Source of the DNA: Candidatus Gastranaerophilales bacterium
Lineage (GTDB): Bacteria > Cyanobacteriota > Vampirovibrionia > Gastranaerophilales > Gastranaerophilaceae
Direction of reading: 5' to 3'
NCBI GenBank assembly: GCA_944323695.1
Contig: CALUTI010000004.1
Coordinates: forward strand, 62,001-126,000
Length of the DNA: 64,000 bases
Position 1 is the stretch's first letter; every line of letters starts with the position of its first letter. Under the pieces are notes generated by a model. It saw only the letters and a program-made list of their open reading frames with translations. It ran no database searches and had not been told where the DNA came from. The translations under genes and the position numbers were made by a program. Of the stretch, positions 1,706 to 11,301 are shown one piece after another.

Positions 1706-3037
1706 ATGAAAAAAAGTTTGGTAAAATACCCGTATTTAACGCAGGATGTTGAAGTTTACACCCGCGACAACGGGCACAAAATTGTTCTGGCACACAAAGA
1801 AGGCACCCTTGCAAACCTTAGTACATGGGTTAAAACAGGCTCCATTAACGAAAATGACCAAAATAACGGAATTTCGCATTTTCTGGAGCACTTGATGTTC
1901 AAAGGAACCCATAAGCATAAAGCAGGCTACTTTGACAAAACCCTTGAGGCAAAAGGCGCTATTGTCAATGCCGCAACCTGGAAAGACTATACTTTTTATT
2001 ATGTTACCCTTCCGAAAGGTGAAAACTGCTCTGATTTGAACCTTGCAATTGAGCTTCATGCGGATATGATGCTTGACCCTGTTTTGCCGGAAGAAGAAAT
2101 TGGCGCACCGTTTAATCTTAATGACCCCGAGGTTAAGGACAAACGCGAACGCCACGTTGTTATTGAAGAAATCAGAATGCGCAAGGATCAATCCTGGACA
2201 AAAGTTTATAACACATGTAATTTTAACATGTACACAAAACATCCTTACAAACGTGATGTTATCGGCACGCCGGAAATCATTTCACAGGTTACCCGCGACG
2301 ACATAATGAATTATTACAGAACTTTTTACACGCCCGAAAATATGACAACAATTGTTGTGGGCGACTTTGACCACGAAGAAATCCTTAAAAAAATCGAGCA
2401 GGAATTTGATTTTAAAGGACGTGCAAATACCCCGGTTCAAATCCACGAACAGGATTTGCCGGTTACCGAGACAAAATATATTGAACAGACCTCGCATATA
2501 AATACTTCTTACGCGATGTTCGGCTGGCTCGGCCCAAAGGCAAACGACCTGTACGGCACAATCTGCCTTGATTTAATCAGCATAATTTTCGGCGACGGTA
2601 CAAGTTCAAGGCTTTACAGAAATTTAATCGAAAAATTGCCTGAACCGATATTCAATATGGTAAGTTCAGAGCATTACCAGTTCAAAGACGGAGATAATTT
2701 CTTTATTCAGGCGAACTTTAAACCTGAAAAGAAAGATTTGGCGTTGGATTTGATTAAGCAGGAGCTTGAAAAGCTTTTGACCGAAAGGATTACGGAAGAC
2801 GAGCTTTTAAAAGCCAAGAAAAAAACAAAATCAAAATTTGCATACACAGCCGAAACAGTTTCCGAAATAGGCGAAAACATCGGTTACTATATGACGGTTT
2901 GCGATGATTTAAAAATCATAGAGCATTACCTGAATGATCTGGAAAACATTACCGTAGAGGATTTGGAAAACACTATTAAAAAATACCTCAACATAAACAA
3001 TGCAGTAATATCAGTACTGGTTCCGGAAAATGAGTGA
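1706..3037 (+). CDS. M16 family zinc metallopeptidase
   Basis: A 443-residue pitrilysin/insulinase-type (M16) peptidase of the one-domain-pair bacterial kind. The inverted zinc motif HFLEH is at residues 58-62, and the downstream Glu ligand lies in VVIEEIRM (about 154-155). It also has the NAATWKDYTFYYV strand that lies beside the active site in this family. No signal peptide is seen, so it is probably cytoplasmic. A TATAAT box at 1678-1683 and an SD-like GAGAGG before the ATG support the start. It overlaps the following uracil-DNA glycosylase gene by 8 nt. The physiological substrate is unknown. Confidence 0.9.
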   Translation: MKKSLVKYPYLTQDVEVYTRDNGHKIVLAHKEGTLANLSTWVKTGSINENDQNNGISHFLEHLMFKGTHKHKAGYFDKTLEAKGAIVNAATWKDYTFYYVTLPKGENCSDLNLAIELHADMMLDPVLPEEEIGAPFNLNDPEVKDKRERHVVIEEIRMRKDQSWTKVYNTCNFNMYTKHPYKRDVIGTPEIISQVTRDDIMNYYRTFYTPENMTTIVVGDFDHEEILKKIEQEFDFKGRANTPVQIHEQDLPVTETKYIEQTSHINTSYAMFGWLGPKANDLYGTICLDLISIIFGDGTSSRLYRNLIEKLPEPIFNMVSSEHYQFKDGDNFFIQANFKPEKKDLALDLIKQELEKLLTERITEDELLKAKKKTKSKFAYTAETVSEIGENIGYYMTVCDDLKIIEHYLNDLENITVEDLENTIKKYLNINNAVISVLVPENE

Positions 3038-9181: not shown

Positions 9182-10741
9182 CTAAATCACCCCGAATTCT
9201 TCCAGCCACTCTTTTTCGACATTCGTCATCATAGAGTAGTCAATAAGTTTTTTCTCGTAAGGCATTTTTACAAACGAATTAATTTTGCCATTTTTTAAAT
9301 AGCAGGAATTCTCAAGCCTTACGCCGAAATGCTCCGCGTTATAAAGCCCCGGTTCAATCGTGAAGCACATATTATCCTTTAAAGGAGTTTTTGCGATTTC
9401 GTTTTTTCCGAGATTTGGCGGTGCCTCGTGAACATTTATCCCGATGCCGTGCCCTAATCCGTGGTTGAAAACAAACCCGTCGATTTTGTTTTCGTCAAAA
9501 AATACGCGTGCCTCGCTGTCAATATCATAACCTGACAAATCCTCTTTAACCTCCGTATTATATGCATGCAAAAATGCCCTCAAAACTGTTGTGTAAACCT
9601 TTTTCTGCAATTCATCGGGTTCGCCTTTTACAAAAACTCTTGTAATATCGGTTGCCAGTCCGCCTTCAAAATATGCGCCGCAATCTATTAAAACGAGGCT
9701 TCCGTCCTCCAAAACCTCGTCCGCTGAGGATTTGGAATAGTGTGCAAGCGCGGAATTCTTGTCCTTTGCAATAATTGAGTTAAAGCTCAAGCCTTTTGCG
9801 CCGTTTTTTATGAATTCTTCTTCAAGTTTTCTTGCAATATCAAATTCCGAAATATTCTCAACGGAATTTATGTAATCCCTGACCGCCCGCACAGCATTAT
9901 CTGTCCGTCTGAAAGCATCTTTATAATGCACAATTTCCGCATCCGTTTTAACTGCCTTCATTAATTTGACCGGACTTGAGGTCATTTCCGCCGCACGGCT
10001 TCCCAAAAGTGCATAATCGTAAGCGTTTATTGAACTTTTATCAACGTATATCTTTTTATCAAGCGTTTTGATGAATTCTTCAAACTTATCCGGCCTGTTT
10101 TCTTCAAATAAAAGGGCTTTGTCTTTCAAAATAACCGCTTTTGCCTTGATTTTAGAGGAAAACGGCATTGAAAAATCCCTTAAATTGAAAAGATACGAAA
10201 CTTCTTCCAAATTCGTCAAGAGGATTGCTTCATCGTCATTCAGTTTGATTTGAGCGATTTTTTCCTCGCTTGAAAGCCCCGTAAGACTCTTATCAAGCGG
10301 AACTATCTCCTCATGTGCCGCGGATACAAAAATATCCAGCGGATCTTTGTCCAAAAGCTTAATCCTGCGCTGTTTTTGGATTAAATCCACCACGGACTGA
10401 GGATTTTTTTCGGAAAAAAGCCCTAAAACCGCATCACAGGGCACGTTTTTCAGCATTTCTTCCAAAAAAGTCTGTCCTGTTTGCAGTTTTACAACGGTGA
10501 TAATATTATGATCGACTTCCAAATCCGCCTGAATATGGTATCTTCCGTCAACAAACAAAAGCACTTTGTCCAAAGACACCAGCGCATCGCCCGTGGAGCC
10601 CGTAAATCCGGTGAGATGATATCTGGAATTTTCGCTCAGGGTGTTGTATTCCACCAGAAATTTGTTAGTGGAATTTACAAGCAGATAGTCGACCTTTTGC
10701 TCGGTCATAAATTCTCTTAGAATCGGCAGAACGCTGTTCAT
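9182..10741 (-). CDS. M24-family Xaa-Pro aminopeptidase
   Basis: A 519-residue aminopeptidase P-type enzyme that removes N-terminal residues preceding proline. It has a creatinase-like N-terminal domain with GRYHIQADLEVD, a middle domain, and a C-terminal pita-bread catalytic domain. Metal ligands are visible in DCGAYFEGGLATDITR (two Asp), HGLGHGIGINVHE (His), FTIEPGLY (Glu) and VRLEN (Glu). The layout follows the eukaryote-like three-domain XPNPEP form but is shorter. It overlaps the end of the parvulin gene upstream by one base. Confidence 0.9.
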   Translation of the reverse strand: MNSVLPILREFMTEQKVDYLLVNSTNKFLVEYNTLSENSRYHLTGFTGSTGDALVSLDKVLLFVDGRYHIQADLEVDHNIITVVKLQTGQTFLEEMLKNVPCDAVLGLFSEKNPQSVVDLIQKQRRIKLLDKDPLDIFVSAAHEEIVPLDKSLTGLSSEEKIAQIKLNDDEAILLTNLEEVSYLFNLRDFSMPFSSKIKAKAVILKDKALLFEENRPDKFEEFIKTLDKKIYVDKSSINAYDYALLGSRAAEMTSSPVKLMKAVKTDAEIVHYKDAFRRTDNAVRAVRDYINSVENISEFDIARKLEEEFIKNGAKGLSFNSIIAKDKNSALAHYSKSSADEVLEDGSLVLIDCGAYFEGGLATDITRVFVKGEPDELQKKVYTTVLRAFLHAYNTEVKEDLSGYDIDSEARVFFDENKIDGFVFNHGLGHGIGINVHEAPPNLGKNEIAKTPLKDNMCFTIEPGLYNAEHFGVRLENSCYLKNGKINSFVKMPYEKKLIDYSMMTNVEKEWLEEFGVI

Positions 10742-11022
10742 TAGTTTTTACCGGTAAGCTGAATCAAATGCCAGCCGAATTGGGTTTGAACGGGTTTGGA
10801 AACCTCGCCGACTTCCATATCAAATGCCGCATCTTCAAAAGGTTTAACCATCATTCCGCGTCCGAAATAGCCCAAATCCCCGCCTGCTCGACCTGACGGA
10901 CATAGTGAATATTCCTGTGCGGCTTCGGCAAAAGATTTGCCGTTTTTAATTTCTTCGTACAATTTTTTAGCTTCTTCTTCTGTTTTAACAAGAATATGGC
11001 TTGCTTTTACTTCTGTTGTCAT
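10741..11022 (-). CDS. parvulin-type peptidyl-prolyl isomerase
   Basis: A 93-residue stand-alone rotamase (PpiC family) without signal peptide, so cytoplasmic. The sequence runs KASHILVKTEEEA, SFAEAAQEYSLCPS, GGDLGYFGRGMM and FGWHLIQL, covering the whole domain. The start is set at 11022 because an AAAGGAG SD lies upstream and a promoter maps after the longer in-frame start at 11097. It heads an operon with aminopeptidase P and the SpoU methyltransferase. Confidence 0.93.
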   Translation of the reverse strand: MTTEVKASHILVKTEEEAKKLYEEIKNGKSFAEAAQEYSLCPSGRAGGDLGYFGRGMMVKPFEDAAFDMEVGEVSKPVQTQFGWHLIQLTGKN

Positions 11023-11047: not shown

Positions 11048-11076
11048 ATTATAACCCAAAAAACCGAGTTGCGCAA
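11048..11076 (-). promoter_or_regulatory. sigma-70 type promoter of the parvulin operon
   Basis: On the minus strand TTGCGC (11076-11071) and a perfect TATAAT (11053-11048) are separated by exactly 17 nt. The predicted start at about 11041 gives a short leader with the AAAGGAG SD, which excludes the longer 11097 start. Confidence 0.75.
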
Positions 11077-11108: not shown

Positions 11109-11203
11109 AAAAAAGCGTAGACCCAAAATATTTTCAACCAAACCCGCTAAAGAAAAACTCTTGTCGCAACCCCGAAAAAGTGCCTGGATATCTTGAGTCT
11201 ACG
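11109..11203 (-). ncRNA. candidate stand-alone small RNA, rod-shaped, about 95 nt
   Basis: On the minus strand the ends pair as a 16-bp helix (11203-11188 with 11131-11116) that includes one U-G and one G-U wobble. On the plus strand those pairs would be mismatches, so the minus strand is the transcribed one. A second helix CCAGGC/GUUUGG (11187-11182 with 11143-11138) stacks on it, leaving a 6-nt one-sided bulge UUGAAA. The closing helix is followed by six U, so it also works as a terminator. A TATGAT box (11214-11209) lies 5 nt before the 5' end. The conserved SRP (GGAAG/GCAG) and 6S features were looked for and are absent, so the family is unknown. Confidence 0.6.
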
Positions 11204-11283
11204 TATATATCATAACTCTTTTTTTAAGTGTTTTCACCCTTCCAAAGAATTACTTTTATTGTGAAAAAAATAACGATTAATGA

Positions 11284-11301
11284 CTAATTCTAAAGAATTA
11301 G
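11284..11301. repeat. 18-bp AT-rich palindrome
   Basis: A perfect inverted repeat CTAATTCT-AA-AGAATTAG lies between the candidate small RNA and tRNA-Gly. It could be a protein-binding site for either of the divergent transcripts. No family is recognised. Confidence 0.35.

Follow-up and report, generated by a model that had tools for sequence, protein, structure and literature searches.

A probable structured small RNA gene conserved across the order Gastranaerophilales

Analysis of a window of 64,000 nucleotides from a Candidatus Gastranaerophilales genome (G000, 1.73 Mb, 97.8% complete) points to a small RNA gene on the minus strand at 11203 to 11109. On sequence grounds, this is very probably a real, independent gene, conserved across the order Gastranaerophilales, for a structured regulatory small RNA. 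The Gastranaerophilales are common gut-dwelling relatives of cyanobacteria, for which almost no experimental genetics is known. The predicted RNA forms one rod and is located in an intergenic region between ppiC on one side and a divergent tRNA-Gly gene on the other, in agreement with the protein-free setting described in an earlier sequence-only reading of this DNA. The elements of the RNA are listed below.

11109 to 11203, minus strand: rod-shaped small RNA, short form of the window's genus, predicted transcript of about 95 nt (fold; covariance models R1 and R2 with homologues)
11188 to 11203, minus strand: 5' arm of the closing helix, 16 bp (fold; double-sided changes in all 12 modelled pairs)
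11116 to 11131, minus strand: 3' arm of the closing helix, here predicted to double as terminator stem (fold; covariation)
11182 to 11187, minus strand: 5' arm of inner helix 2, CCAGGC, with its partner at 11143 to 11138 (fold; covariation)
11138 to 11143, minus strand: 3' arm of inner helix 2 (fold; covariation)
11144 to 11156, minus strand: U-rich one-sided bulge of 13 nt (fold)
11164 to 11175, minus strand: apical element UCGGGGUUGCGA with UCG/CGA stem and loop GGGUUG, proposed as the element of recognition (unchanged in 83 of the 100 homologues found by the model, the search itself being biased toward such members)
11109 to 11114, minus strand: U6 tract after the closing helix, predicted intrinsic terminator in the window's genus (sequence; U-run counts in homologues)

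Folding of the minus strand gave a minimum energy of -29.2 kcal/mol, compared with a mean of -18.0 kcal/mol for 200 dinucleotide shuffles, none of which folded as well (z -3.93). The 95-nt rod described earlier could be recovered, and consists of the 16-bp closing helix with its G-U pairs, the 6-bp inner helix, the 13-nt one-sided bulge, an apical hairpin and the U6 tract. The plus strand of 11109 to 11203 folded far more weakly, with only -14.8 kcal/mol (z -2.35), so the claim that the wobble pairs favour one strand proved right.

The predicted helices are supported by covariation among relatives. In a plain MAFFT alignment of 27 sequences, which was not fitted to the structure, 9 of the 25 predicted pairs showed changes on both sides. 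The covariance model alignment of 88 sequences (82 distinct) was fitted to the structure and hence favours it; here 96.4% of the pair cells contained standard pairs, and double-sided changes were found at 20 of the 25 pairs in 273 cells, against 12.7 pairs and 60.9 cells in shuffles. Sliding the pairing by one to three columns reduced the paired cells to 27-48%. In the closing helix, double changes were seen at each of the 12 pairs modelled, while inner helix 2 was paired in 99.4% of the cells with changes on both sides at four of its six pairs. The comparison of relatives that had been proposed as a check thus revealed extensive compensatory change, and not the non-compensatory pattern that would speak against the helices. 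A peptide-coding reading of the locus was rejected, because the lengths of the members fall in all three mod-3 classes (41/32/27).

Three conserved elements could be located in the DNA upstream of the RNA, at the following positions in the window.

11209 to 11214, minus strand: -10 box TATGAT (sequence; in 99 upstream stretches TTATNAT with constant spacing)
11232 to 11250, minus strand: -35/activator block ATTCTTTGGAAGGGTGAAA, including a weak -35 box GTGAAA at 11237 to 11232 (homologue upstreams compared with controls)
11285 to 11300, no strand assigned: palindrome TAATTCTAAAGAATTA about 90 bp upstream, probably the site of a regulator (homologue upstreams compared with controls; genome search)

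In the aligned homologues these elements correspond to a palindrome TAATTCT-nn-AGAATTA about 85-100 bp upstream, a block ATTCTnnnGnrkGGTGAAA over the -35 position, and TTATNAT. Taken alone, the window promoter GTGAAA-17-TATGAT is near chance (2 found, 1.1 expected), and its conservation is what counts; the -10 box claimed earlier for this RNA is present and is retained in relatives. The promoter core was found with at most three mismatches within 120 bp upstream at 75 of 99 loci and in none of 95 control stretches, and the palindrome with at most two mismatches at 81 of 99 loci and likewise in none of the 95 controls. For one of the 100 members the flank was too short to be used, and controls had to extend 270 bp downstream. 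Some of these related loci had served to derive the patterns, so that the counts describe conservation and are no independent test. Within the window genome, the full promoter pattern was matched by the RNA gene with 0 mismatches and by the next four sites with 3, making it unique at two or fewer. Taken together, this looks like a dedicated promoter of the activator type.

The palindrome occurs more widely, as 25 sites with at most one mismatch were present in the window genome, against 10 in the control. The five exact sites include the one at the RNA gene, one upstream of a pilin-like gene and two inside reading frames. An exact site at position 1501-1516 of locus L268 (G000:C2:51067-51082) is intergenic, flanked by a glucan-phosphorylase-like and a hypothetical gene; the sequence that follows it resembles that at the RNA gene, and both are possibly bound by the same regulator. 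Just upstream of the RNA gene, a MarR-like regulator gene was seen at L126 and four other loci, and a sigma factor/anti-sigma-like pair at L110 and four others, the identities being assigned by reading the sequences.

At the DNA level, 133 of the 146 relatives searched showed a match, many of them through the tRNA alone. Covariance model R1, built from 27 loci, matched 149 of 239 genomes of the family, representing 25 of 41 genera and including 134 of 197 good genomes, nearly always with one copy per genome. Among 289 genomes drawn from the whole class, 132 were matched by R1, and all of the matches listed belonged to the same family. Model R2, built from 88 sequences, was applied at E up to 0.1 to 80 genomes, mostly such without an R1 match, and matched 12 of them. 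Nine of these were among 31 genomes of the family and three among 19 genomes from other families of the order; the 30 genomes from outside the order gave no match. The three order-level matches come from two other families and have E values of 0.0015-0.025, which is weak alone. Their upstream DNA is not part of the R2 model, and the promoter core was found there with 0 mismatches at L235 and 1 at L236, so these two are well supported; at L232 it had 5 mismatches, as in controls, with only 2 in the palindrome. We infer that the order containing families f1 to f7 is Gastranaerophilales, which NCBI taxonomy places as Candidatus Gastranaerophilales in Candidatus Melainabacteria. A search with a 21-base core pattern returned at least 116 stretches; among the matches listed with informative titles, almost all were from Gastranaerophilales or Melainabacteria, and no match was obtained in viral contigs.

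Two single loci from these searches deserve mention. A contig titled Muribaculaceae (L165, JAMPCZ010000034.1) carries the core motif of the RNA with ppiC downstream, and is probably a Gastranaerophilales contig that was mis-binned or mislabelled. In genome G011 of the same genus, a second, partial copy of the 3' half of the rod lies directly downstream of the complete RNA (L007, about 1810-1880, plus strand), apparently as a result of tandem duplication.

The 3' end of the RNA is present in two forms. At least five U follow the rod directly in 44 of 100 homologues, including 12 of 15 in the window's genus, where only the short form was found. A terminator scan reported 0 sites at the rod, its loop limit of 8 nt excluding the rod by design. 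In the long form, a conserved unpaired motif (CTCTATGTTTGATATG, TTTTCACGTTTGATATAC or TTTTTCATGTTTTATAAC) is followed by a separate terminator hairpin ending 56-121 nt past the rod, with changes on both sides at 8 of its 9 predicted pairs. This form was counted in 40 of 100 homologues with the stricter tail pattern, and in 42 of 100 with a slightly wider motif. Three members carry both U-run and module (the two members of genus g28 plus one from g7), and 17 of 100 carry neither. In genus g14 the second module stays beside the rod although ppiC is not adjacent, which indicates that the module belongs to the rod RNA. The earlier statement that the whole RNA is its own terminator is thus predicted to apply in the window's genus; as a general rule it lacks support, since many other genera are predicted to have a longer RNA with a separate terminator.

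Alternative explanations for the rod were considered in relation to its neighbour on the 3' side, its terminator-like shape and the known rod-shaped RNAs. The neighbouring gene and its promoter are situated as follows.

10741 to 11022, minus strand: ppiC, parvulin-type peptidyl-prolyl isomerase, neighbour outside the RNA gene (Pfam Rotamase_3)
11048 to 11076, minus strand: predicted ppiC promoter TTGCGC-17-TATAAT, between the RNA 3' end and ppiC (sequence; similar elements elsewhere in the genus)

The rod could be a cis-acting leader of ppiC, either a riboswitch or an attenuator, as the rod is followed on its own strand by ppiC in 72 of the 116 motif-selected loci listed and in 49 of the 100 loci found by the model. 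This explanation is very unlikely. The constant linkage to one downstream gene expected of a leader was not found: among the 116 loci listed, the gene that follows is convergent in 23 and a different one of the same strand in 9, with none resolved in 12, and the 49 model-found loci with ppiC are confined to 10 genera. In addition, ppiC of the window appears to have its own promoter after the U6 tract, a terminator and a spacer intervene in the long-form genera, and the second module remains with the rod in g14. Judging from this gene order, the RNA gene is independent of ppiC, in line with the isolated small RNA that had been proposed. That the structure is only a terminator or a chance inverted repeat with no function of its own has next to no probability; a long stem followed by U6 would indeed end transcription, but neither the covariation around an almost invariant loop nor the dedicated conserved promoter would be expected, and many genera keep the rod while the U-run is lost. 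A divergent 6S or SRP RNA, suggested by the rod shape and small size, is highly improbable. In the Rfam 15 covariance scan of the 64-kb window only the tRNA reached the gathering score; the rod itself drew only a few matches at E up to 10, all of them far below their cut-offs, and the 6S (RF00013) and SRP (RF00169) models did not match it even there. Candidates for both were found elsewhere in the genome: the sole RF00169 match (C2:57789-57874) has 53.4 bits, above the cut-off, while the sole RF00013 match (L032, C1:29912-30092, minus strand) is full length with 38.4 bits against a cut-off of 46.4, a score at which annotation pipelines would miss the 6S-like RNA of Gastranaerophilales. The rod is a third RNA beside these two, and represents an RNA family absent from Rfam 15, although of a known kind, the structured small RNA. 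The proposed Rfam check gave no family at or above the gathering score for the rod, and its description as neither SRP nor 6S was borne out.

Another gene of this region, prfB (release factor 2; window 12573-11484, minus strand), appears to carry the classical programmed frameshift. By eye, a short frame from an ATG at about 12573 ends ...AAGGAGTGT CTT TGA C, and the main frame with the RF-1/PCRF domains continues in another frame.

How the RNA acts is a more finely balanced matter. We tentatively favour, at little short of even probability, a trans-acting small RNA that works by base-pairing. An activator would bind at the ATTCT block and at the palindrome further upstream, and switch on the promoter with its weak -35 box. 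The covarying helices would provide a stable handle, which in the window's genus may serve as terminator too, and hold up the almost invariant apical hairpin UCGGGGUUGCGA. This hairpin could then act in trans by pairing with C-rich sites (...AACCCCGA) in target mRNAs, presumably without Hfq, and in many genera another unpaired motif (...CUAUGUUUGAUAU or UUUUCACGUUUGAUAU), conserved ahead of the separate terminator, may provide a second site for pairing. Such an RNA is expected to be transcribed independently, from its own promoter to its own terminator, and a unit of this kind is indicated here through conservation. Pairing is favoured by four rows of genus g6, in which GGUUGCGA is kept with an altered 5' half of the hairpin stem, as would be expected if it is read as linear sequence, and by the conserved unpaired motifs of the long form, such as occur in pairing small RNAs.

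It is also possible, if rather doubtful, that the RNA binds a protein, with the near-invariant hairpin and its UCG/CGA stem as the recognition element, and acts on a regulator or enzyme by titration or modification, in the manner of 6S and CsrB with their own partners. The UCG/CGA closing pairs are kept in 79, 79 and 80 of the 82 distinct rows, nearly as invariant as the loop, and family f7 retains the hairpin stem while the loop is altered (GGGUAU); both observations favour protein binding, as do the usually single copy and the spread across the order. With the apical hairpin altered further still in g39 and g40, these loop changes fit poorly with one fixed seed. Sites complementary to the apical element also showed no real enrichment, with 18 forward against 12 in the reversed control at up to two mismatches. 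Only one long duplex near a start codon was found, at fmt (-24.3 kcal/mol), where the site falls within codons for a presumably conserved motif of the protein; other candidate sites belong to a secreted-protein-like and an aconitase-like gene, named from reading their translations. Against protein binding stand the g6 rows and the unpaired motifs mentioned above, the separate 6S-like gene, and the lack of a CsrB/RsmZ-type sponge with repeated GGA loops and CsrA: the window RNA contains no GGA, and no CsrA match was obtained in the window genome or five other genomes of the family, while CsrA is present in both f7 genomes searched. For Hfq (PF17209) none of eight genomes gave a match, and as the model also missed a Synechococcus control, a divergent Hfq is possible. 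Pairing of GGGUUGCG with the 16S rRNA stretch CGCAACCC, which we take to be universal, was dropped as a candidate, since chance alone is expected to yield 8-mer matches to rRNA and the bases concerned are altered in members of f7, f4 and g30.

Base-pairing by the apical hairpin remains our tentative choice. A wider proposal, which we regard as unlikely, is that the rod is the third ubiquitous structured RNA beside 6S and SRP in this order of host-associated cyanobacterial relatives with reduced genomes, a master regulator with a hairpin that binds many mRNAs or a global factor, and which gained a second, unpaired targeting module in some genera. If true, it would be a master regulator in a lineage with no detected Hfq, and with no CsrA in the family genomes tested. 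With its single copy, its covariation and its dedicated promoter, the RNA would mark a regulatory circuit that was kept across the order, and the short and long forms in different genera offer a natural experiment in the acquisition of a second targeting region by a small RNA.

Judged by titles and the beginnings of abstracts, the open literature searched yielded no paper on small RNAs of Gastranaerophilales or Melainabacteria. The candidate structured RNAs reported from human microbiomes (PMC8040213) resemble the rod in being computationally found structured RNAs with no known role; the main text of that paper does not mention Melainabacteria or Gastranaerophilales, and the RNA may have been detected earlier under a number in its supplementary tables. 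The group names are likewise absent from the main text of PMC11109978, and in that of PMC8632094 the word cyanobacteria occurs once, in the title of a reference.

Among characterised RNAs, the rod shares with bacterial small SRP RNA a similar length and the shape of a single rod; it differs in giving no match to the SRP model in a genome that encodes SRP RNA elsewhere. Like 6S RNA, it is clade-wide, rod-shaped, non-coding and usually single copy. However, it is half as long, has no match to the 6S model, exists beside a separate 6S-like gene, and does not have the central open-promoter-like bubble that is a feature of 6S RNA, an RNA known for binding sigma70-RNA polymerase and for serving as template of pRNA. 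NsiR4, PsrR1 and IsaR1 are examples of trans-acting small RNAs under the control of regulators, from cyanobacteria and others. We know of no sequence relation of the rod to RNAs of this type. It resembles them in being a stand-alone gene with a regulated-looking promoter, a structured body and a predicted intrinsic terminator, and may likewise do without canonical Hfq. It differs in the place of its conserved element, which is the apical loop of a rod.
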